A stretch of 64,000 nucleotides of DNA from Methanomethylovorans hollandica DSM 15978 (GTDB taxonomy: Archaea > Halobacteriota > Methanosarcinia > Methanosarcinales > Methanosarcinaceae): positions 62,001 through 126,000 of the forward strand of contig NC_019972.1 in assembly GCF_000328665.1 (NCBI RefSeq), in the 5' to 3' direction. Every line of letters begins with the position of its first letter. Position 1 is the first letter of the stretch. The position numbers and the translations under genes are program-made. The notes below the pieces were generated by a model, which was given only the letters and a program-made list of their open reading frames with translations, was not told the origin of the DNA and made no database searches. Of the stretch, positions 17,167 through 29,016 are shown piece after piece.

Positions 17167-18030
17167 TTAAAAGTCTATTTTAACATTCGAGTATTTTGTA
17201 TATCCTCCGCTATCTCCATCTTGTGGTCCAAAGTCTGATCCAGCTTCTCCAGCTCCATATACTGAAGCACTTGTTTGTACTTTTAGGTAAGCAATATAAT
17301 TGTGGCCACCCTGTATATTTACGGCTAATCCTTTATTGAAACTTTCTCCAACTTCATACCATCCAAGACCACCAGCTGATTCACTATATATCTCAGTAGA
17401 ATATTCCGTTCCAGTAGTTGAATCTTTTAATATAAGATGAACTTTCGAGCTACTTGAGCCTCCAGCAGCTGCAGAGGTCAATCCTTCAATATATCCATTC
17501 ATTCTTATGTTTGCAGTTCTGCTTCCAGTGCCGCTAACATAGAAAGAAGTTCCTACCCATGACCATGCTCCTCCTCCTCCATATCCTCCGGGACCAACGA
17601 CTGTTGCACCAGTAGCTTTGTTTGAACTGGTAGTATATCCAGATCCATATAATATCGGAGCTACTCCCCACTTTGATTTTCCACTGGAACCAGTATTTGC
17701 GCTATAGAATGTTTTATCAGTGCCAAGAGTAACGGTATTAGTAGCAAGAGTTCCAGAGAGAGATTTAGTGTTTTTGCTATCGTTAATTGCTTTTTCTACG
17801 GAAGCAGTTATCTGTGACTCCATTTCCTTCTCAATCTGCATTCGTATGTTCTCTGCTTCTTTGAGATCTGCGTATGAAGATGAATTATTCGAAGCGTGTG
17901 AAGCTATTTCTTTTTCTTTTGTGCTTATATCTGCTGTCTTTTCTATTGATTCTGCACTTGCTGTAACTACAAACAATGTACAAATCAACAGCGTTCCTAT
18001 AACCAGCATATTTCTTAACCGATTTCTCAT
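17167..18030 (-). CDS. Secreted glycine/serine-rich protein under leader-RNA control
   Basis: A 287-residue exported protein. The signal peptide is MLVIGTLLICTLFVVTASA. An acidic helical region follows (IEKEMESQITASVEKAI), then a Gly/Ser-rich beta domain (GPGGYGGGGAWSW, TSAAAGGSSSS). No C-terminal anchor, so it is probably released or bound to the surface. Its 5' leader (18031-18177) is a conserved structured RNA shared with the secreted protein at 28414-28824. It lies downstream of an ABC ATPase gene but has its own promoter. Function unknown. Confidence 0.7.
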   Translation of the reverse strand: MRNRLRNMLVIGTLLICTLFVVTASAESIEKTADISTKEKEIASHASNNSSSYADLKEAENIRMQIEKEMESQITASVEKAINDSKNTKSLSGTLATNTVTLGTDKTFYSANTGSSGKSKWGVAPILYGSGYTTSSNKATGATVVGPGGYGGGGAWSWVGTSFYVSGTGSRTANIRMNGYIEGLTSAAAGGSSSSKVHLILKDSTTGTEYSTEIYSESAGGLGWYEVGESFNKGLAVNIQGGHNYIAYLKVQTSASVYGAGEAGSDFGPQDGDSGGYTKYSNVKIDF

Positions 18031-18177
18031 TGTTTACCTCTTGTTCTTTACTCCAGAGGCGTTGAAATATGGATTTTAATTTTGTAAAGCCAATATCTCT
18101 ATGCCTTTGGGCCACTAGGGTTTGAATCGACTCTGAATGTTTAGTTCAATCCCGAGCACATATATTCATGATGTGCT
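18031..18177 (-). promoter_or_regulatory. Structured 5' leader, candidate riboswitch (copy 1)
   Basis: Read on the minus strand. It has a hairpin AGCACAT/ATGTGCT (18155-18177), then a stem GGGATTGAA/TTCAAACCC (18118-18153) around the loop CTAAACATTCAGAGTCGA, then GGCCCAAAGGC, then CTTTAC (18084-18089). CCTCT (18055-18059), GTAAAG (18046-18051) and AGAGG (18037-18041) follow. CTTTAC can pair with GTAAAG and CCTCT with AGAGG in an interleaved, H-type pseudoknot. AGAGG is the Shine-Dalgarno sequence. The copy at 28825-28970 keeps the loops but changes stem bases in a compensating way. I know no named riboswitch of this form. Confidence 0.65.
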
Positions 18178-18204
18178 ATATTGTAATACAACTAAATTTC
18201 ATTT

Positions 18205-18228
18205 ATGTATTATGGCCACTTTTTCGAA
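18205..18228 (-). promoter_or_regulatory. Promoter region with TTC-N8-GGCCATAATA motif
   Basis: On the minus strand TTCGAAAAAGTGGCCATAATA is followed by the TATA-like CATAAATG, and the leader RNA begins about 30 bases later. Related motifs lie at 16870, 22960, 29000, 30358 and 44037. The position directly upstream of the TATA element suggests an activator or BRE-linked site. Confidence 0.4.
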
Positions 18229-18273
18229 TTAATAATTAATGTTATCGATTTGTAAAAAAGTGAAAATAATAAT

Positions 18274-19242
18274 TTACACTTGAACTCCTTCGATGATCTT
18301 AAGGAATAGCTTCTGCAGATTCATTTCCTCTTCTTCGAACATTGAGATAGTTCCACCTGCGTTCTTTACACTTTTTGCAATCTCGCCGCGTGGCATGTTA
18401 TTTGTGTGTATATGCAACGTGCTATCCTGTGTATTAGTGATCTGCACTCCATCTATACTCCTTATAGCATCAATTGTTGCAGATAACGGTATATCCTGCA
18501 CTTCAAGGAGATAGTTCACTCCTTCCTTTTCCTTTACAATAGCCCGTAGTTCTTCCACAGAGCCTACAGCAAGCAATTTGCCTCTTGCTACTATTGCTAT
18601 TCGGTCACAGATCTCTTCTACTTCCTCCATGGAGTGTGAACTCAAAAAGACAGTAACTCCTTTATTCTGATTTAAATCTTTAATGAGATCTCTCATCATC
18701 TGAGCACCAAGAGGATCAATACCGCTTGTAGGTTCGTCAAGGAACAGGATGGATGGCTCATTGATCAAAGCCTGGGCAAGACCAAATCTCTTCCGCATAC
18801 CTGTGGAAAAACCTCCGATCTTCTGATCAATGGCCTTTTCCAGACCTACAAGGTTCAGCAGGTCAACTATCCTTTTTTCCCTCACCTCAGGTTCAATATC
18901 GTATAACTTGGCATAGAACCTCAGGTTCTGTCTGGCTGTCAGATGGTCGTAAAAACCAGCAGGTTCAGGAAGTACACCTGTAGCTTCACGGATATTGATC
19001 ACTTCCCTTACAATATCAAATCCTGCGACTTTTCCGCTACCTGAAGTTGGTTCAAGTAATCCGATCATCATCTTCATCGTAGTGGTCTTGCCCGCACCAT
19101 TAGGTCCTACAAACCCGAATACTTCACCTTTTCTTACTTCAAGGTTAAGAGCGTTCACAGCAGTACTCTCGTTATGTTTCCCAAACTTCTTTGTAAGGCC
19201 TTTAAGCTCTATTACGTTCTCATTTGCTACCACGTTATCCAT
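18274..19242 (-). CDS. ABC transporter ATPase (NosF/CcmA type)
   Basis: A 322-residue ATP-binding subunit. Walker A is GPNGAGKTTTMK, the signature is FSTGMRKRFGLAQ and Walker B is ILFLDEPTSGID. The C-terminal 90 residues resemble the accessory domain found in ATPases for ABC-2 exporters. It is the only ABC ATPase among four ABC-2 permeases in 20.9-28.3 kb, so it may serve all of them. The gene follows the NEW3-type surface protein by two bases, in one minus-strand operon from 22885. Confidence 0.9.
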   Translation of the reverse strand: MDNVVANENVIELKGLTKKFGKHNESTAVNALNLEVRKGEVFGFVGPNGAGKTTTMKMMIGLLEPTSGSGKVAGFDIVREVINIREATGVLPEPAGFYDHLTARQNLRFYAKLYDIEPEVREKRIVDLLNLVGLEKAIDQKIGGFSTGMRKRFGLAQALINEPSILFLDEPTSGIDPLGAQMMRDLIKDLNQNKGVTVFLSSHSMEEVEEICDRIAIVARGKLLAVGSVEELRAIVKEKEGVNYLLEVQDIPLSATIDAIRSIDGVQITNTQDSTLHIHTNNMPRGEIAKSVKNAGGTISMFEEEEMNLQKLFLKIIEGVQV

Positions 19243-19244
19243 AA

Positions 19245-20453
19245 TTATCTCCTTCCGAATTTTGAAATTACTATTAACAATAAAACAATAGCAGCTGCTA
19301 CTAACCCAATCCCTATAAATCCGCTACTGCTGGATTTTTCAATTGTCACTTCTACAGAACCATCCTTACTCTGGGCCTCATCACTAACTGCTCGCATAAG
19401 CAGCTCTTTCGTTCCCGGACTTGCATCGGCTCTGGCTGTTATTTCGATAGATGTATCCCAGGATTCTCCTGCTTCAAGTTCATCTATAGTGCCAAAACTT
19501 CTGACTTCAGTTGTAAGTCCTGTTACATCCTGTACTTTCAGCTCCACGTTATTGAGTGTTTCATCTCCTGAGTTTCTTAAGGTAACATAGATCTCCTTCG
19601 AGGAACCCGGATTAAGAGCAATGCTACTCGTACTCTGTGATATAGTAAGCATTTCTTCTTCTTCCAGACCATTGTTGATGGTAAGGTCAAGTCCCATTGA
19701 AACACCATTTTTTCCATTTTCCGGTATGGCCTGGATCTCAAAGGGATATATTCCATCAGTTGCATTTTGTGATGGTTTGACCTTTACAATGAACTGCTGT
19801 TCAGAATCAGCAGCAACTGATAATTTTGTCTGTCTGTAATCTTCATCATCTACTTCCTGAAGGAACTGAATGCTCCAGTCTTCCGGCTTTCCGATTGCGT
19901 TTAAGGAAACAGTTACTCGATGGTCATATTTGTTAACAAGAGTTGCAATGTACTCTACGGTATCAGTTGAACGTGTTTCCATACCGGGAGTAGTCGAATA
20001 AAGATCCAGATTTGGCTCAGCGTTGGTATCTACTGTAACAGTAAATTCTCTGGAAATTGTGTCGCCATCATCAGGTTTGAACTCAGCCCATATAGAATAA
20101 GCACCACTTGATGTATTTGAAGGAACATTAACTCTCAATACAATCTCTTCAGGCTCATTGTTATCTTCAGGGAATAATAAATTCGTAATCTGATCATTGT
20201 CCTCATAGAACCCCGCACTCCATCCTTGAGGTATATCTTTTACAACCAGATTGCACCATGCATCGTCACTATCATTATAGCAGCTTTCTACAGTTATGGG
20301 AAATTCAATTGTATCTCCGGGATAGACAACTTTTCCAGTAATCTGGTTAATTACTGCTACTGATGAATAATCTGCATTGACACAAGTAATTGCCATCAGA
20401 ATGAATATCAGAGCAATTCCTGTAATTTTGATGAGAAATTTTGTATTTTTCAT
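19245..20453 (-). CDS. Surface protein with NEW3/COG1361-type domains
   Basis: A 402-residue exported protein. Signal peptide (GIALIFILMAITCVNA), then repeated beta-sandwich domains of the NPCBM-associated NEW3 kind (PGDTIEFPITVESC, IPQGWSAGFYED, LNPGSSKEIYVTLRNSGD, AGESWDTSIEITARADASPG). The C-terminal membrane helix (GIGLVAAAIVLLLIVI) ends in GRR. Such proteins often accompany archaeal ABC-2 exporters and may form the extracellular part. It lies between a membrane-anchored 139-residue protein and the ATPase in the operon. Confidence 0.8.
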   Translation of the reverse strand: MKNTKFLIKITGIALIFILMAITCVNADYSSVAVINQITGKVVYPGDTIEFPITVESCYNDSDDAWCNLVVKDIPQGWSAGFYEDNDQITNLLFPEDNNEPEEIVLRVNVPSNTSSGAYSIWAEFKPDDGDTISREFTVTVDTNAEPNLDLYSTTPGMETRSTDTVEYIATLVNKYDHRVTVSLNAIGKPEDWSIQFLQEVDDEDYRQTKLSVAADSEQQFIVKVKPSQNATDGIYPFEIQAIPENGKNGVSMGLDLTINNGLEEEEMLTISQSTSSIALNPGSSKEIYVTLRNSGDETLNNVELKVQDVTGLTTEVRSFGTIDELEAGESWDTSIEITARADASPGTKELLMRAVSDEAQSKDGSVEVTIEKSSSSGFIGIGLVAAAIVLLLIVISKFGRR

Positions 20454-20495
20454 TGCACCACTTTTTACTGAAGGATTTGTAAGATCGCTGTTAAC

Positions 20496-20915
20496 TCAAA
20501 CTGCTATTACTCCCAGAGAAATGTCTGATTCTTCGTGTTCATCAAACAATGTTATATCGAACATGCTCCACAATTGCAAACCGGTTTGAATTTTTTCAGT
20601 GAGATCATTATCTACTGTCACTTGTATTGTGATATCTTTGCTATTTCCCGGAGGGAAATAGAGCTGTAACATTAACCATGCAGATTTTGATTGAGATATC
20701 TCAGAATCAGGATCCATTACGTATACTTCTTTGAATATTGAATTGTTTTTAGGATCCGATATTTCAACCATGACCTGATGAGAAATTGTATCTTTATTTT
20801 TCATTGAAAAAAGAGGTTCTGGCTTTCCAATGAATATAAAGGGCATAGCAATGCAGCTGATAATGATCAGTGCAATTATGACAGCAGCAAAAGAAAGTAT
20901 GTATGATCTTTTCAT
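20496..20915 (-). CDS. Membrane-anchored extracellular protein
   Basis: A 139-residue protein with one N-terminal membrane helix (YILSFAAVIIALIIISCIAM) and a beta-rich outside domain (ISHQVMVEISDPKNNSIFKE, PPGNSKDITIQVTVD). The style is like a single CARDB/NEW3 domain. Its place between the permeases and the NEW3-type protein suggests an accessory subunit of the same exporter. Unknown family. Confidence 0.6.
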   Translation of the reverse strand: MKRSYILSFAAVIIALIIISCIAMPFIFIGKPEPLFSMKNKDTISHQVMVEISDPKNNSIFKEVYVMDPDSEISQSKSAWLMLQLYFPPGNSKDITIQVTVDNDLTEKIQTGLQLWSMFDITLFDEHEESDISLGVIAV

Positions 20916-20970
20916 AATTTTATCTCTCTGATCTCATTGACATGCTATGTTTGCTCCCTAAACCGTTTTA

Positions 20971-21834
20971 TCATAATGTAATATCCTTCCTCAGAAATGC
21001 TATGAATGATAGAACAAGCAGAACCATCGGAACTACAACTAATATTGTAAGGTCCATCCAGAAGTTAGAAAGCACATATGGAATGGTCTGGCCGACATCA
21101 AAGAGTCCATTGACCAATTGCTGATAATGATACGCTGGTGCTATCCCTAATAACTGTTGAAAGATAACTGATAAATTCCCGTCTGCATCTACGATCTGGA
21201 TACCAAAAACATACAGTATAGCTCTTATGATATCAGAATATGCGATAGTAAAGAACAGCCAGACCACTATGTTATAGATAAGTGAGTCTGACGTGTTCTT
21301 TGCAATTATCGAGATAAATAGTCCGGATCCCAGGAAGATGACAGAGTACAGGTATGCAAGAATGAAATACAGGGCAATTCGTGAGATCTCAAATAATGTT
21401 ATCTCTTCACCGATGAACATGAGCAGGGTTCCAATGGATAATGCCATTGATACTGCAATTACAAGTAATAATGACATCATGGCTCCCAGTATCTTTCCTG
21501 TTATAATGTTATCCCTGTAGACAGGATGAGTTAAAAGCACGTTCATAGAACCTGACTTCTCTTCTCGCAGAAGTGTATCAAAGCTTAAAGCGATGCCAAA
21601 TAGCGGTATGAATTGTGACAAGGTAGAAGTAAAAAAGAACAGACCTCGCAAGATTCCTGGCATAAGGCTGTCCATCATTCCTACAAAATTTGTTGCAATA
21701 ACTCCATACTGATAACAGGAAGCTATGGAGATCAGGCTGAATGATGCTAATAGGATTAAGAATATGGGACTCCAAAGGTTATCTGCAAATTCCTTTTGGG
21801 CTATTGTCATTGCATTTCGGAAAATTACATTCAT
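20971..21834 (-). CDS. ABC-2 type permease
   Basis: A 287-residue permease with six membrane helices of the NosY/ABC-2 kind. The conserved start IAQKEFADNLWSPIF and the coupling segment EEKSGSMNVLLTHPVYRDNI are shared with the three other permeases at 21838, 26427 and 27340. It is three bases from the preceding permease stop codon. It probably works as a half of a heterodimeric exporter with the ATPase at 18274. The substrate is unknown. Confidence 0.85.
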   Translation of the reverse strand: MNVIFRNAMTIAQKEFADNLWSPIFLILLASFSLISIASCYQYGVIATNFVGMMDSLMPGILRGLFFFTSTLSQFIPLFGIALSFDTLLREEKSGSMNVLLTHPVYRDNIITGKILGAMMSLLLVIAVSMALSIGTLLMFIGEEITLFEISRIALYFILAYLYSVIFLGSGLFISIIAKNTSDSLIYNIVVWLFFTIAYSDIIRAILYVFGIQIVDADGNLSVIFQQLLGIAPAYHYQQLVNGLFDVGQTIPYVLSNFWMDLTILVVVPMVLLVLSFIAFLRKDITL

Positions 21835-21837
21835 GCT

Positions 21838-22725
21838 TTATCCCCTCGTTATATCCTGTTTTATAAAGATCAAAAGAGATGATATGATGAGCAAAAAGGG
21901 TGCTACTATAAGTGATACAATATTTGTCCAATAGTCATTCAACCATTGTCCTAATGAGTGACTCATATCGAATAATCCTGCACTGGTCTTTAGATCTTCT
22001 TCATCATACGAGATGCTAATTCCAGCTACTGCCTGGTAATAATGATTTAACGGAGATAGATACTGTAATTTCTGGTCTACTATCTGAGCATGCTCCTCAT
22101 TTTCGCTGTAAAGAACTTCACCTGTCGTAACAGAAGCTATTAATGCAGTTATCTGTCCGAATGCAAGGATAAATACTGCCCATAAAACTATACCAGTGAT
22201 AAATGACTTTGCAGGATTATTAAATATTACTGAGAAAAGCACTCCTAGAGCGAAAAACACTGATATGTAAATGAAAGAAACGAAGGAAAATATCATTATT
22301 CGATTGATCTCTGTCATGCTGACCGGGATCCCTGTCAGTACAAGGGTCACTCCGATTGAAGATATGATCGACAGGATGATCACTAAAGCAAGTGTTAGCA
22401 AACCTCCTGTGACCTTGCCTAGAATAATGTTATCCCGAAATACAGGGTGTGTCAGAAGCGTATTCAAAGAATCAGATACTCTTTCTTTAACGATTGCATC
22501 ATATCCAAGGGCAAGTCCTAAAATGGGCAAGAATGTACCCATTGTATATACAGTAATAAATGAACCCTCTTCGAAGATATTGGATTGGTTTTCTACATCA
22601 CTGATACTACCGGATAAAAGAATCATTATTACTAATGCAAGCAGTACTCGGAATCGTGTGCTGTATACATTATCAGCAAACTCTTTCTGGGCTAATGTTA
22701 ATATGTTCTCAGTATTTAACTTCAT
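21838..22725 (-). CDS. ABC-2 type permease
   Basis: A 295-residue six-helix permease, paralogous to the 20971-21834 gene product (LAQKEFADNVYST, LNTLLTHPVFRDNIILGK). A 52-codon small frame ends one base before its start region, and both may be read from the same message. The promoter with the GGCCATAAT motif lies near 22960. It heads the half-operon that ends with the ABC ATPase. Confidence 0.85.
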   Translation of the reverse strand: MKLNTENILTLAQKEFADNVYSTRFRVLLALVIMILLSGSISDVENQSNIFEEGSFITVYTMGTFLPILGLALGYDAIVKERVSDSLNTLLTHPVFRDNIILGKVTGGLLTLALVIILSIISSIGVTLVLTGIPVSMTEINRIMIFSFVSFIYISVFFALGVLFSVIFNNPAKSFITGIVLWAVFILAFGQITALIASVTTGEVLYSENEEHAQIVDQKLQYLSPLNHYYQAVAGISISYDEEDLKTSAGLFDMSHSLGQWLNDYWTNIVSLIVAPFLLIISSLLIFIKQDITRG

Positions 22726-22726
22726 T

Positions 22727-22885
22727 CTATTTCCTCATAACTGCATTGCATTTTTGTGCAAACGATCTGTTGATAAAATAAAACAGATAATTTGCTGATA
22801 TGGGTTTAGAGATCATTTTTCTAATATGAGGGATCGATTTTTTTACCAGGCAACTTTCTATTCTACTTTTCATTAAATCCCCCAT
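22727..22885 (-). CDS. Possible small basic protein at the head of the exporter operon
   Basis: A 52-codon frame from ATG 22885 to TAG 22727. AGGTGG lies about ten bases before the ATG, a TATA-like ATAAATAAAA lies further upstream, and the stop codon is one base from the next gene's start codon. The product is strongly basic (about 11 Lys/Arg) with no clear membrane helix. The placement argues for a real gene; the sequence matches nothing I recognise. Confidence 0.4.
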   Translation of the reverse strand: MGDLMKSRIESCLVKKSIPHIRKMISKPISANYLFYFINRSFAQKCNAVMRK

Positions 22886-22944
22886 TTGATATCTTCCACC
22901 TTTACTTAAATCATTTCAATGTGTTTCATTCTAATTCGTTTGCA

Positions 22945-22975
22945 TTTTATTTATCCATTATGGCCATTGAATGAA
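22945..22975 (-). promoter_or_regulatory. Promoter with GGCCATAAT motif for the exporter operon
   Basis: On the minus strand TTCATTCAATGGCCATAATG is followed by GATAAATAAAATG, a good TATA element. Same arrangement as upstream of the two leader RNAs (18205, 28995). The gap 22886-23053 contains nothing else I can support. Confidence 0.4.
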
Positions 22976-23053
22976 CTGTTCTCTAAAAAACAATTGATTT
23001 CAGTCTGCTCAATGCTTTTATGAGATTCATCCAGACTTCTCTAAACTATCTGA

Positions 23054-24727
23054 TCATTTCCTCCGTTTTAGTAAGCATATGCATACAATACAAAAAAATA
23101 GGTCTGTCAGCTGAAATGCAGGCGAATGGGGTGTGTTTTTATTGTTGGCCTCGTCTTTGTTTCCGATGGTTTTTACACTGGCCTGACTGCTATTGTTGGA
23201 CTGGACTTTATTCTCATTGCCAAGTATTTCACTTACAGGCATTTCTTTCCAGCCATCAGTTAAATTCGTACCATCCAATGAAATGAGATAGGAACTACCA
23301 TGTATGGTTTCATCACTTTTGAAATGCGTAGTGGTTGCTGTAAGTATCTTGCTGTCCGGGCTCCATCCTTCTACAAAATCATATCTACCTTTTACAGCCG
23401 GAGTTATTTGAGTGAGGTTAGTTCCATCAGAGTTAATAGTAAAAAGTGGTGCTTCAATGAGTTTTCGAGATTCGATCGAAGGTTCACGATCAATAGTTTT
23501 ACCGTCCTCACTGATCGCAGAAGTAAATGCGATCGTTCTTCCGGATGGACTAATCGATATCTGCTTAAATTCATATACCTCCCAGATGTAATGCGTTGTC
23601 AATCCGATATCTGTAATATGTAGAAGATTTGTTCCATCGAGATCTATAGAATAGAGCTGATTCTCATTTTCAATGAAAAGGATCTTGTTGCCATCAGGAA
23701 ACCATTGCGGATGAGTTGCATTGCCTTCATATAATAGACGTTTTTTGTTATCATTGCCCTCTAATATGTATAGATCTCCATTCTCATTCAATAGCATATC
23801 AGAGCCATTTGGCTGCCAGATACCAAATTGAAGTTGTGTATCACTAAATAACTCAAGATTTGATTGGTCAATTTTCAATGGTTCTGACCCATCAATATTA
23901 GAAAGATAAGATTGATATTCATCTTCATTTTCTGATCTTGAACCGGTGACTATTTTTTTCCGATCAGGGCTTATCGAGGAGAGACTATATTCTTCTCCTT
24001 TATTAGGCGAAGTAAGTGTCCTGATATTATTTCCATTGATGTCTTTGACAATTATGCTTCCATTTTGTAATTGACAAATGACAACTGTTGAATTACACCA
24101 CATAAGTGTATTTGCATTTGTCTGCAGTTCGAATGCTTCAGTTCCATCCAGGTTCTCTATCCAGATATTGCCAAAATAGTTTTCTGAATCTTCATATTTG
24201 AAAGTTAATTTTTGATTATCTGGACTACAAGTAAGGTCCCTGTATACAATTTCTCTACCAAGATGAGATATTACATCAGATAGAGTAGTAGTATCAGAAG
24301 AACCTATTGTTCTCATATTAGTACCATCCGGATTGCAAATTACAGTGTTTCCTCCAAACTCACCACGGCCACCCCTTTTTGATACGGAGAAATATGTTTT
24401 ATTATTGCCTGGAATCCAGCTAATTCCCGGTGACATATAATTGCTTTCTTCTTCGGTTATACCATAGTTGATCTCTCCAAATGTTCGATTTTGGAAATCT
24501 AATAGGTAGTGTTTGTTAATGGATTCCGCCATGGATATCTGATTGAATGACCCAAAAATCAAGTATCTTCCATCTGAACTCCACTCGGGAGAATGTATTA
24601 CGAAGCCATTCTCTGAATGAGTTAAGTTAATCAATTGAAGCGAACTGATATTTCCGGAAACCGGCACTGCTGTTGTTACTCCTACAAATAGGAAGATCAT
24701 TAGAATAATACACCATTTATTGTTCAT
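23054..24727 (-). CDS. Exported TolB-like beta-propeller protein
   Basis: A 557-residue secreted protein from the ATG at 24727, which has GGTGA upstream and is followed by a signal peptide (CIILMIFLFVGVTTAVPVSG). It carries many TolB/WD40-like PD40 repeats with the motif SPDG-like (SSDGRYLIFGS, SPDNQKLTFKY, FPDGNKILFIEN, SPSGRTIAFTS, SPDSKILTATT). The C-terminus is a hydrophobic helix with KRRK (SPAFQLTDLFF), a degenerate PGF-CTERM-like tail. It would sit at the surface next to the exporter. An upstream frame to 24784 lacks a signal. Confidence 0.75.
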   Translation of the reverse strand: MNNKWCIILMIFLFVGVTTAVPVSGNISSLQLINLTHSENGFVIHSPEWSSDGRYLIFGSFNQISMAESINKHYLLDFQNRTFGEINYGITEEESNYMSPGISWIPGNNKTYFSVSKRGGRGEFGGNTVICNPDGTNMRTIGSSDTTTLSDVISHLGREIVYRDLTCSPDNQKLTFKYEDSENYFGNIWIENLDGTEAFELQTNANTLMWCNSTVVICQLQNGSIIVKDINGNNIRTLTSPNKGEEYSLSSISPDRKKIVTGSRSENEDEYQSYLSNIDGSEPLKIDQSNLELFSDTQLQFGIWQPNGSDMLLNENGDLYILEGNDNKKRLLYEGNATHPQWFPDGNKILFIENENQLYSIDLDGTNLLHITDIGLTTHYIWEVYEFKQISISPSGRTIAFTSAISEDGKTIDREPSIESRKLIEAPLFTINSDGTNLTQITPAVKGRYDFVEGWSPDSKILTATTTHFKSDETIHGSSYLISLDGTNLTDGWKEMPVSEILGNENKVQSNNSSQASVKTIGNKDEANNKNTPHSPAFQLTDLFFCIVCICLLKRRK

Positions 24728-24826
24728 TCTGTCACCGATTATTAAAAATAATAGTTCTGGATAATCCAGAACTGGTCTGGTCAAGCATGATAATATGCAT
24801 ATTTGTCAATTTACATTTCTATCTAC

Positions 24827-26398
24827 TCATCGTTTTTTGATATGCACATATGCCATAGCAACAACAAATACAACAAATCCTAAGATTGCAGAAAAACCAG
24901 GAGCCTGAGAAGCAGCTGTATTATTTACTTTTTGCTCTTGGTTGTTACTGCTGTTGAGTACAGTTACTTGAGATGCTGAATCATTTTTCTGATCCCTGGC
25001 AATTATTCCTGGATTGTTTCCATAGTTCATTTCAAGGATCGTATTATTGATTGCAATGAAATGTTCCTGAGGAGAGACACTAATCATATAAGGATAAATT
25101 GCAGATCTTGGGATCTCCCATATTGTGTTCGTACTCGTATTCAAGATAGATGTTTTGCTATTAGTAGTGAACATAAGATCAACATTGATCCATGAACTTC
25201 CTGTTACATTTGAGAAATCCTGCTTATATGAATCATTAAATATAACTAATTTAGAGGTACTGGTATCTAATACTGATATATAATCATCAGGACCTAAATG
25301 AACTTCGACTACTTCTATACCATCTAACAGGACCTTCTGATTTCCGGTAATTGAAATAGAACAAAGTTTACTCGATCCAATTGAGTCATCGGCCACTAAA
25401 TCGGCCACTAACAGTCTTTCACTGTCAGGATACCAGTTTAATACTGAATATATACCTCTTTTTTGATTTATTTTTTCAGTAGTGTTTGTATTTTTATCCA
25501 TGACGTAAATATCATAACCATTTTCGCTATTTTCATCTGTTTCATTCAAAGTATAGAACACAAGTTTTTGACTGTCTGGACTCCATACTGTATCATACAT
25601 TCCGATATTTTCAACTGAATACATTAAATAGCGTTCTTTTTGATCAATGTCTATATTTACAATATTTTTATACCCTTCCAAAAAAGCGATATTTTTACCA
25701 TTTGGAGACCATTCAAGATGATCAATATTAGAGATGTCATTATCAATATCAAAGGTAAGGTTATTTTCTTTGACAGGATCATAGATAACCAGTTTCCCAG
25801 GAGCAGGTACAGCAAGCATTTCTTCAACAGGAGACCACTTATAATTTAATGGATAGTTATAATTGCGAAGCATCTTGTTATCCATTTCGATTTGTTGAAC
25901 TTGTTGCATTTCAGTTGATACAACGAAAAGCTGAGCTGATTTTACCGTGTACATTTTCCCTTCAGTTAATTCTTCATATGCAAAAAAATCCCCAGATTGA
26001 CTCCAGGAAGGCGATTCAATTATCTTTCCATATTCAGTAGTTGTAAACTCTGTCCATGCAATGCGTGAGATGTTTGAGAAGTCTTTACCTGCAATATAAA
26101 GTGCAGAAATATATCCTGACTGAGTATCTCCTTTTCCTTTTGGACAAACATAAAGCTTTACGTTAATTAATGCATGTTTCTCATCAGGGCTCCAGATGAC
26201 ATTATAATAAGGACCAAATTCAATTTCAAGGCGATCAGTATCAACAAGACCTCTTATATCCTTATCTATTGTCTGATTCAGGTCAGCTATGATCGTCGTA
26301 TTCATTTGTTTGATGCTGGTGCCTGCAGCAAGTGGCTGAAAAGAGATACAGGCTAAAGCAATGAGTAGTATGATTTGAATTGTTTTCATTTTGAACAT
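24827..26398 (-). CDS. Exported TolB-like beta-propeller with PGF-CTERM-like tail
   Basis: About 523 residues from ATG 26398 (GGTGATT upstream). Signal peptide (TIQIILLIALACISFQPLAA), PD40-like propeller repeats (SPDEKHALINVKLY, SPNGKNIAFLEG, SPDSQKLVFYT, YPDSERLLVADL), and a C-terminal APGFSAILGFVVFV helix ending in KKR. PGF followed by a helix and a basic end is the signal cleaved by archaeosortase A, so it should be lipid-linked to the surface. It is a paralogue of the neighbouring 557-residue protein, and both are framed by ABC-2 permease pairs. Confidence 0.75.
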   Translation of the reverse strand: MFKMKTIQIILLIALACISFQPLAAGTSIKQMNTTIIADLNQTIDKDIRGLVDTDRLEIEFGPYYNVIWSPDEKHALINVKLYVCPKGKGDTQSGYISALYIAGKDFSNISRIAWTEFTTTEYGKIIESPSWSQSGDFFAYEELTEGKMYTVKSAQLFVVSTEMQQVQQIEMDNKMLRNYNYPLNYKWSPVEEMLAVPAPGKLVIYDPVKENNLTFDIDNDISNIDHLEWSPNGKNIAFLEGYKNIVNIDIDQKERYLMYSVENIGMYDTVWSPDSQKLVFYTLNETDENSENGYDIYVMDKNTNTTEKINQKRGIYSVLNWYPDSERLLVADLVADDSIGSSKLCSISITGNQKVLLDGIEVVEVHLGPDDYISVLDTSTSKLVIFNDSYKQDFSNVTGSSWINVDLMFTTNSKTSILNTSTNTIWEIPRSAIYPYMISVSPQEHFIAINNTILEMNYGNNPGIIARDQKNDSASQVTVLNSSNNQEQKVNNTAASQAPGFSAILGFVVFVVAMAYVHIKKR

Positions 26399-26426
26399 TT
26401 GAATCACCATATGAGAATATAAAATA

Positions 26427-27329
26427 TCATAGAGTCATGTCTTTTCTTAAAAATGAAATAAAACATAAAACCAATAGTACGATAGGGGTTAGAAGCAAAT
26501 ATAAAATGTTTAGCCAAAATTCATTGAACCACTGACCAAGTAAGAAACCGGTATCAAAAATACCTCTGATATTTGGTTCAATGTTAATCCCTCCCCAGCT
26601 GAGATCGATTTCACCAAGTGATACTTCACTGTAATGGTGAAGTGGAGTAAAAGATATTAGCTTATATGCTGAGTCAGGTATGTCGGTTTGGCCTGTAGAT
26701 GCAGAAGTAATTGAAAGAATTATGGATCCAGACACAATGCAAATCAATAACCATATCAGGATATTATAAACAAGTGAATCTTCTGATTCTTTAGCATGTA
26801 CCGATATGAATATTGCAATTTCTGCAAATATAAGTGCATACAAAAAAGTTAGAACAATAAAGATAAGGATCCTGAGAATTTCCAGATAGCTTATATTTGT
26901 ACCCGTATAAACTAGAATAGTTCCTACAGGAACTATTGTTGAGAAAAAGATAACAGTTAGAAGTGCTCCAATTATCCCAATAATTTTTCCTACGATTATA
27001 TTGTCTCGAAAGACAGGATGGGTTAAAAGTACATTAAAAGATCCTGATTTTCTTTCCTTTATTATTGCGTCGAATCCAAGTGTAATTCCTATAAGAGGCA
27101 CAAACCATCCAATTTGCTGTATAATTCCCATCAAACCAGACATTATAGTTAAGTTTCCTCTGGTTTCAATTAAGTACACACTTCGGAATGAGAAAGCAAG
27201 AATGATTAGAGTGTAAGTTACTATGAACATAAGAAATAAAGGGCTGGATACAAGATCTGCGAACTCTTTATGAGCTATCTGAAATATGTTTTTTAAATTA
27301 ATTTTTTTACTTTGATTGTGTCTGCTCAT
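26427..27329 (-). CDS. ABC-2 type permease
   Basis: A 300-residue six-helix permease of the same paralogous set (IAHKEFADLVSSPLF, SGSFNVLLTHPVFRDNIIVGK). It lies ten bases after the permease gene at 27340 and 16 bases before the region of the PGF-tailed propeller gene, so all probably belong to one operon. No ATPase gene is in this half of the cluster; the one at 18274 may serve it. Confidence 0.85.
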   Translation of the reverse strand: MSRHNQSKKINLKNIFQIAHKEFADLVSSPLFLMFIVTYTLIILAFSFRSVYLIETRGNLTIMSGLMGIIQQIGWFVPLIGITLGFDAIIKERKSGSFNVLLTHPVFRDNIIVGKIIGIIGALLTVIFFSTIVPVGTILVYTGTNISYLEILRILIFIVLTFLYALIFAEIAIFISVHAKESEDSLVYNILIWLLICIVSGSIILSITSASTGQTDIPDSAYKLISFTPLHHYSEVSLGEIDLSWGGINIEPNIRGIFDTGFLLGQWFNEFWLNILYLLLTPIVLLVLCFISFLRKDMTL

Positions 27330-27339
27330 GTTTTTTCCC

Positions 27340-28239
27340 TCAATTGGTAATGTCTTGTTTCAAAAAAGATACAAATGACATGATGAAAAGAGTTATAATC
27401 GTTGATATCAGGACTATAATATCAGTAATGTACTCTTTTAACCACTGTCCAATCGTATAATTTGCATCAAATATTCCACGAATACTATCCAGATCATTTT
27501 TCGAAAAACCTCCCCAAGTCATACAAGGGTGTCCGATTACAAGTTCAGAATAATAATGTACAGGAGTTAATTTCTGAAGTTGGGCATTAAGGTCCATAGC
27601 TTGTTCATTATTACCGAGGTCAAGTAGAGATTGGCCTGTGAACATTGTTGAAATGACTAAGGCAAAGCTACCAAATACCACACATAATATCAACCAAATA
27701 CAAATGCCATAACTGAGAGAATTAATAGAATCTTTTGATATTGTTGAAATGAATATTCCTAGCATGAGGAAAACGGATAGATAAAGATAGTTAATTATTG
27801 CAAATAAAAAGATCCTGTTTAATTCCTCGGAGGTTATCTGAACACCAGAAATCAATATCATTGTTCCAATGGATGCTATCATCGAAATGAATACAATTAG
27901 TATAAGAGTTATCATTGCACCTAATACTTTTCCGGCAATAATACTATCTCTATATACTGGTTGCGTTAAAAGTACATTTAGAGATGCATTTCTTTTTTCC
28001 TTAACAATTCGGTCAAAGCCGAGAGTTATTCCAAAAAGAGGTAAAAAAACAGCAATTATTTGAGCTACATCGACAAATCCCATATCAAGAAAATTTGTAT
28101 TTTCAGCATTGTTGTGATAACTGAAAGAAAATAAAATTAACGTAAAAATTGAAAGGAGTAAAAGGAATCTAGTACTCCACAAATCATCAGCAAATTCCTT
28201 TTGTGCTATTACTATACAATTCTTAATATTCAGATTCAT
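27340..28239 (-). CDS. ABC-2 type permease
   Basis: A 299-residue six-helix permease (IAQKEFADDLWSTRF, ASLNVLLTQPVYRDSIIAGK). It is the first gene of the permease-propeller half-operon; AAGGAC precedes the start region. Paralogous to the other three permeases in the cluster. The upstream gene 28414 is separated by a strong terminator, so this gene needs its own promoter. Confidence 0.85.
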   Translation of the reverse strand: MNLNIKNCIVIAQKEFADDLWSTRFLLLLSIFTLILFSFSYHNNAENTNFLDMGFVDVAQIIAVFLPLFGITLGFDRIVKEKRNASLNVLLTQPVYRDSIIAGKVLGAMITLILIVFISMIASIGTMILISGVQITSEELNRIFLFAIINYLYLSVFLMLGIFISTISKDSINSLSYGICIWLILCVVFGSFALVISTMFTGQSLLDLGNNEQAMDLNAQLQKLTPVHYYSELVIGHPCMTWGGFSKNDLDSIRGIFDANYTIGQWLKEYITDIIVLISTIITLFIMSFVSFLKQDITN

Positions 28240-28374
28240 GTTATTCAGTAGTCCTTATTATTTTATCTGAGTCGTAAATAATTCATAATATTGTACCCTT
28301 GTGTGCTTTTATGGAAGTTTGTTAATAATGATATTTTTAGGGGAATTGTTCTGTTATTTATTTGATCATTATTT

Positions 28375-28410
28375 TTAAAAAATTAAATTAGAGAAGGTTC
28401 TCTTCTCTAA
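28375..28410 (-). terminator. Hairpin terminator after the secreted-protein gene
   Basis: On the minus strand TTAGAGAAG and CTTCTCTAA form a perfect 9-base stem (28388-28410) around a 5-base loop, followed by TTTAATTTTTT. It lies four bases after the stop codon of 28414-28824. Confidence 0.7.
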
Positions 28411-28413
28411 TTA

Positions 28414-28824
28414 TCAGTACACAAAGTTTCTTCCAGCTATGAATTGATATGACGATTGTGTTCCTTTTGTAATTTTGATGCGAGGAGGAGTAGAACTTGA
28501 CAATTGATTTGCATAATGATCAACTGTTGGATGTGCAACCCTTGCATCAATATTGGTACTAGTTTTGTATAAATACATGGATCCACCAGCTGTATAAAAA
28601 GTGTTCTGGAGGTCTATGTAACAACTATCACCTGTAGTGACAGTAAATTTATACCAATCCCCTGCACTCTTACAGGTCCCACTCCAAATATCAATATCTC
28701 CATTTGGAACAGATATTGATGTTGCTGTGCTGTACGAGGACCCACCTGATGCTGATGCTGCTCCAGTAGCGACGAGCAGAACAAGCATCATTAGTCCTAA
28801 TTTTACTAAACTGTTTATTTTCAT
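28414..28824 (-). CDS. Small secreted protein under leader-RNA control
   Basis: A 136-residue exported protein: signal peptide (LGLMMLVLLVATGAASASG), then a beta-rich domain resembling a pre-peptidase C-terminal (PPC) domain (GDIDIWSGTCKSAGDWYKFT, SCYIDLQNTF, GGSMYLYKTS). Two cysteines may form a disulfide. No membrane anchor at the C-terminus, so probably released. Its 5' leader (28825-28970) is homologous to that of the secreted protein at 17167-18030, so the two are expected to share a signal. Function unknown. Confidence 0.7.
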   Translation of the reverse strand: MKINSLVKLGLMMLVLLVATGAASASGGSSYSTATSISVPNGDIDIWSGTCKSAGDWYKFTVTTGDSCYIDLQNTFYTAGGSMYLYKTSTNIDARVAHPTVDHYANQLSSSTPPRIKITKGTQSSYQFIAGRNFVY

Positions 28825-28970
28825 TTTCTACCTCTTGTTCTTTACTCCAGAGGCAGGACAGCAATGATTATACACAAGTAAAACCAATATTGTCTTGCCT
28901 TTGGGCAATCTGGGATCCGAATCGACTCTGAAAGTTTAGTTCGGATCCCTCTCACATTATCTAAATGTGA
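28825..28970 (-). promoter_or_regulatory. Structured 5' leader, candidate riboswitch (copy 2)
   Basis: Read on the minus strand. Hairpin TCACATT/AATGTGA (28952-28970), a perfect 10-base stem GGGATCCGAA/TTCGGATCCC (28912-28949) around the loop CTAAACTTTCAGAGTCGA, and TTGCC-CAAA-GGCAA. Then TTTTAC (28878-28883), CCTCT (28849-28853), GTAAAG (28840-28845) and AGAGG (28831-28835) just before the ATG. The order allows the same pseudoknot as in copy 1, with AGAGG as the hidden ribosome binding site. Stems differ from copy 1 in a compensating way while the loops are kept. Confidence 0.65.
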
Positions 28971-28989: not shown

Positions 28990-29016
28990 ATCTTATTAAA
29001 CTATTATGGCCACTAC
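28990..29016 (-). promoter_or_regulatory. Promoter region with TTC-N7-GGCCATAATA motif
   Basis: On the minus strand TTCGGGTAGTGGCCATAATA is followed by TTTAATAA and, about 30 bases on, by the leader RNA. Same order as at 18205-18228. The rest of 29017-29306 shows nothing I can support. Confidence 0.4.

Follow-up and report, generated by a model that had tools for sequence, protein, structure and literature searches.

A candidate two-state translational switch in the leaders of secreted-protein genes of methanogens

In translational riboswitches that sequester the Shine-Dalgarno (SD) site, an anti-SD strand in the 5′ leader pairs either with an upstream partner or with the SD itself, and the leaders described here are predicted to share this arrangement. 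Leader-peptide attenuators of the erm and SecM/MifM type are a second point of reference, because their competing stems around two SD-like sequences have a counterpart in our leaders, and secreted targets would suit a monitor of export. Within the archaea, few native riboswitches have been predicted and fewer validated (2024 Methanosarcina mazei study, PMC11549558). The flpD motif (RF01737, Euryarchaeota) and the other archaeal motifs of Weinberg 2010 are, like the present family, candidate structured euryarchaeal RNAs; Methanosarcina is not named in the 2010 survey (PMC2864571). Closest in organism are the long 5′ UTRs of Methanolobus psychrophilus, from the same methanogen group, in which stem-loops are predicted to mask ribosome binding sites; the main text of that report mentions neither secreted genes nor Rfam (PMC5378194).

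The leaders in the window and their surroundings

The window, the 64,000-nucleotide stretch of DNA analysed here, carries two leaders on its minus strand, at 18031-18177 (copy A) and 28825-28970 (copy B), exactly where a sequence-only reading had put them (Table 1). The loops that it described as common to both are confirmed over about 190 nt of shared alignment, which includes CTAAACnTTCAGAGTCGA, GCCCAAAGGC and GCCTCTGGAGTAAAGAACAAGAGGTA and in which loops are conserved and stems vary. Its statement that the stems differ and yet stay paired holds for both copies: P2 of copy A contains one A.A mismatch, and P2 of copy B has 10 perfect pairs. Compared with dinucleotide shuffles, copy B folds far better (z = -5.0) and copy A weakly better (z = -1.4). 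AGAGG was rightly recognised as an SD site a few nucleotides 5′ of the ATG that is able to pair with CCTCT, and the two downstream genes are, as had been said, unrelated and both provided with signal peptides.

Table 1. Positions of leader elements and downstream genes in the window
Feature	Positions	Strand	Remark
Copy A upstream DNA element (AGTGGCCATAATA...)	18199..18220	(-)	predicted promoter region; near-identical to that of copy B
Copy A hairpin P1 (AGCACAT/ATGTGCT)	18155..18177	(-)	
Copy A hairpin P2 (GGGATTGAA, loop TTCAAACCC)	18118..18153	(-)	
Copy A strand S1 (GCCCAAAGGC)	18099..18115	(-)	upstream partner of S2
Copy A hairpin P4	18071..18091	(-)	tip of the S1:S2 stem
Copy A strand S2 (CGCCTCTGGAGTAA)	18048..18061	(-)	partner is S1 or the SD
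Copy A Shine-Dalgarno site AGAGGT	18036..18041	(-)	3′ strand of P5
Copy A downstream gene	17167..18030	(-)	287 aa, signal peptide; Pfam: none above cut-off
Copy B upstream DNA element (AGTGGCCATAATA...)	28993..29014	(-)	predicted promoter region
Copy B hairpin P1 (TCACATT/AATGTGA)	28952..28970	(-)	
Copy B hairpin P2 (GGGATCCGAA, loop TTCGGATCCC)	28912..28949	(-)	
Copy B strand S1 (ATTGCCCAAAGGCAAGA)	28893..28909	(-)	
Copy B hairpin P4	28866..28885	(-)	
Copy B strand S2 (CCTGCCTCTGGAGTAA)	28842..28857	(-)	
Copy B Shine-Dalgarno site AGAGGTAG	28828..28835	(-)	3′ strand of P5
Copy B downstream gene	28414..28824	(-)	136 aa, signal peptide; Pfam: PPC-like match, weak and below cut-off

Across the family the elements follow one another, 5′ to 3′, as an optional P1, P2, S1 (UUGCCCnnAGGCAA), P4, S2 (UUGCCUCnGGAGUAA) and the SD, with the start codon shortly after; the leaders are about 125-190 nt long and P1 occurs in 37 of 83. 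TATA-like boxes peak at -28 from P2 where P1 is missing and near -50 where it is present, from which transcription is expected to begin at the base of P1 or P2. Transcription from a point downstream of the structure, named in the earlier reading as an observation that would speak against it, is not what these predicted promoters suggest, since they lie upstream. A motif related to GATnATnTGGnCAnAAA can be seen by eye 5′ of the TATA-like box in many leaders, and its window version, TGGCCATAATA, lies in the upstream elements of Table 1; the shared motif suggests that transcriptional control may be common to these genes too. A helix-turn-helix gene with a FilR1-like domain lies divergently, about 290 nt upstream, at many Methanosarcina-type leaders (loci L140, L141 and L145; L028, L029, L035, L039, L047 and L050), one per leader in a tandem array, and a palindrome, GATGAATATTCATC, is found near the predicted promoter at loci of this type.

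The source genome consists of two contigs of 285,109 and 2,428,904 bases, and the window belongs to the smaller, which we take to be the Methanomethylovorans hollandica plasmid. Four matches to the family were found in this genome; a third leader copy is on the main chromosome (C2:2372768-2372885), in front of a gene for a matrixin-like protein. The interval between the two window leaders (18274-28239) is occupied, all on the minus strand, by ABC-2 type transporter genes (ATPase, 18274-19242; membrane proteins, 20971-21834 and 27340-28239) and by genes for an NPCBM-associated-domain protein and a beta-propeller protein.

One strand with two partners

Strand S2 can pair with S1, in a stem that carries P4 at its tip and leaves the SD free, or with the SD, in a stem (P5) that hides it. 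Folding alone gives both states, depending on the portion of the leader that is included. The earlier reading had proposed an expression platform in which CTTTAC-GTAAAG and CCTCT-AGAGG interleave as a pseudoknot. The CTTTAC:GTAAAG half of this proposal has to be given up: such pairing is possible in the window, but among 83 homologues matched partners (-3.04 kcal/mol) are hardly distinguishable from swapped ones (-2.97 kcal/mol, z = -0.6), and CTTTAC is instead the 5′ arm of the conserved hairpin P4 (z = -4.4). That the SD can be masked stands; the predicted platform is a different one, in which the anti-SD strand would be held by a partner upstream in one state and would pair with the SD in the other. 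The competitor for the SD-hiding strand, GCCCnnAGGC in S1, did not figure in that reading.

The evidence for both stems comes from comparison of the homologues. When partners were exchanged among 83 non-redundant leaders, pairing was weakened in S1:S2 (z = -5.0) and in P5 (z = -7.5). With exchanges confined to clusters of similar leaders the values were z = -4.2 and z = -6.3, reached in 0 of 3000 permutations, a control that only partly removes shared ancestry. Two-sided changes numbered 149 in P2, S1:S2 and P4 together against 42.4 +/- 6.2 in shuffled data, and 51 in P5 against 16.8 +/- 6.8; sliding the partners abolishes both excesses. P2 has such changes at all nine modelled pairs (51 homologues). 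The variable base of S2 (n of CCUCn), at which A, C, G and T are used alike, finds its match in S1 in 61 of 81 leaders (expected 42.5) and in its SD base in 55 of 81 (expected 36.2), and other families rebuild the stem with other letters (for example TGTCTCC/GGAGACA and GTGCCTCA/TGAGGCAC). Because the core pairs of S1:S2 are mostly near-invariant, covariation in this stem comes mainly from its outer and central pairs. An R-scape-like test ranked P2 pairs at the top and was clear only for P2, and anchored swap tests were used for this reason. There are exceptions, for example L106 and L114, in which P5 is poor or the SD is shifted. Taken over the aligned leaders, these comparisons show that the predicted helices P2, S1:S2 with P4, and S2:SD (P5) are each kept by compensating changes. 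S2 covaries with both S1 and the SD and can be in only one stem at a time, so the predicted structures that alter access to the SD are mutually exclusive.

Other roles considered for these elements did not hold up. The S1:S2 hairpin is not followed by the U-run of a transcription terminator, and the swap test on a kissing interaction of the P2 loop with S2 (in Methanosarcina-type copies, TTCCAGAG with CTCTGGA) went in the wrong direction (z = +2.0). P2 itself is the reverse complement of the usual form in 7 of 83 leaders (L046, L102, L112, L115, L117, L119 and L089), with the loop CTCTGG in place of CCAGAG, as if the stem had been inverted, and both orientations occur in some genomes.

According to the partition function, S1 is the predominant predicted partner of S2 in 69 of 83 leaders, and the SD takes this place in 12. 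Since one state is thermodynamically favoured in most leaders, a natural trigger has to be assumed. We think it rather probable, judging from the comparative evidence, that the leaders act in cis as a two-state translational switch for a regulon of secreted proteins in methanogens. The mRNA would begin at P1 or P2. S1:S2, probably the more stable stem, would form first during transcription and leave the SD open by default; S2 is mostly predicted to pair with S1, and both strands are transcribed before the SD, so that regulation would take the form of repression. A signal at P2 or on the S1 side, or melting of S1:S2, would then free S2, hide the SD and stop translation.

Distribution and target genes of the leader family

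A DNA search of 60 relatives yielded five more genomes with real homologues; the matches L012, L014 and L016, on inspection, and L017, by its match coordinates, were rejected as homologues. Six copies served to build a first covariance model, which found matches in 67 of 112 genomes from the window's family; a single genome could contain as many as 21 copies, often in tandem arrays. A second model, from 51 diverse leaders, was applied to 393 genomes of the phylum at E <= 1e-4, and 77 of them gave matches, all within eight families. Its search used no information on open reading frames or signal peptides, and 27 of 30 distant matches (in twelve genomes) lie directly 5′ of an open reading frame with a signal-peptide-like hydrophobic start. 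Weak matches on the strand opposite a leader were mostly P2 read backwards and were discarded. Further homologues with covariation, the check that had been suggested for the two window copies, are thus abundant: the family runs to hundreds of members, some of them in Methanosarcina. The organism names of the relatives (Methanosarcina, Methanomicrobiales) are our assumption.

The suggestion that the class is undescribed fared equally well. Rfam release 15 gave no match at gathering thresholds in the window or in nine homologous loci, and nothing relevant at relaxed limits. The exact loop pattern had only three, unrelated bacterial matches in GTDB contigs and none in viral contigs, plasmid records gave no match, and no account of the family came up in the open-licence library that was searched. 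The RNA family, its distribution and its putative secretome regulon appear to be new, while masking of the SD by alternative stems is a known type of mechanism.

Among 101 downstream proteins with a length of 60 aa or more, 94 satisfy a crude signal-peptide rule; of the window's 47 large open reading frames, 12 do so. The mature parts of the downstream proteins are unrelated. In Pfam, 14 of 86 proteins were assigned to reprolysin-like metalloproteases, 11 to C39-like cysteine peptidases and 2 to matrixin, with no assignment for most. The main non-secreted target (L023, L051, L066, L097 and L115) is a protein of 147 aa, MCEKQKSELL..., which lacks a signal peptide and whose leaders have an altered SD (AAGAAGTG).

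Alternative explanations and comparison with known systems

The strongest competitor is a metabolite riboswitch, in which P2 would be the aptamer and a small molecule would stabilise or break S1:S2, switching access to the SD. It would account for a two-state platform joined to an upstream hairpin whose stem covaries and whose loop is partly conserved. We nevertheless consider it unlikely, because the P2 loops differ among the copies of one genome, some of them inverted, few unpaired bases are conserved, and the targets are united by export and not by a pathway. Keeping the two-state switch, we lean towards a protein or a ribosome- or secretion-linked factor as its signal, rather than a metabolite, since the conserved core consists mostly of pairing and the P2 loops vary within genomes.

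A coupling to a leader open reading frame, resembling erm or SecM-like leaders, would make S1 the SD of a short frame running across P4 and S2, so that a ribosome, while translating or when stalled, would open S1:S2 or S2:SD and thereby determine access to the SD. S1 does contain GGAGG/GAGG-like letters upstream of possible starts, 27 of 77 leaders have a frame that ends at the TAA of GGAGTAA and encodes a similar hydrophobic peptide, and synonymous changes are slightly more frequent in that frame (0.56 against 0.40). Third positions, however, are not the most variable, the spacing from P4 to S2 shifts by 1-2 bases (32 nt in 55 leaders, 31 in 13, 30 in 6), and many leaders have early stops, with the final stop not conserved. 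This explanation seems to us improbable, more so than the riboswitch.

P1 and P2 could also merely protect the transcript as 5′-end stabilisers, the remainder being incidental; this fits a predicted start of transcription at the base of either hairpin, but it leaves unexplained why S2 covaries with S1 as well as with the SD, and we give the idea little credence. Still less credible is a copied module, in which recombination would have spread promoter, leader and signal-peptide segment, and the resemblance would reflect recent copying and not RNA function. Tandem arrays point that way, as do signal peptides that are nearly identical although the mature proteins are unrelated, but copying yields no compensating changes, and the leaders are conserved in several families in which little of the primary sequence remains. 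An RNA thermometer, whose SD-hiding stem would melt on heating, is the least probable of all, since the predicted state populations stay constant from 20 to 55 C, even though the SD-masking stem consists of short helices and SD-masking 5′ UTRs are reported from a cold-adapted methanogen (PMC5378194).

More tentatively than the two-state switch itself, one might suppose that the leaders form a new class of archaeal cis-regulatory RNA, spread over several methanogen families, in which one anti-SD strand with two partners gates a regulon of secreted proteins, secreted proteases included, and senses a trait that they share, for example the condition of the export machinery; we regard this as possible but doubtful. 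Most of the targets are secreted proteins that are unstudied; many are predicted to be metallo- or cysteine proteases, and to our knowledge protease export is not usually expected of methanogens. The leaders would thus point to a large unstudied set of RNA-controlled genes in methane-producing archaea and could serve as an annotation marker for an archaeal secretome regulon. Methanosarcina is genetically tractable, and the proposed two-state RNA is directly testable.

Set beside the systems named at the outset, the family differs from each. The flpD motif RF01737 is part of the Rfam scan, yet does not match the leaders. The work on Methanolobus psychrophilus concerns temperature-dependent choice of start sites (PMC5378194). 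Unlike leader-peptide attenuators, the leaders show no clear conservation of a coding frame or stop. Unlike translational riboswitches, with which they share the alternating anti-SD strand, the leaders have no known aptamer class or Rfam match, and their putative regulon is defined by export and not by a metabolic pathway.
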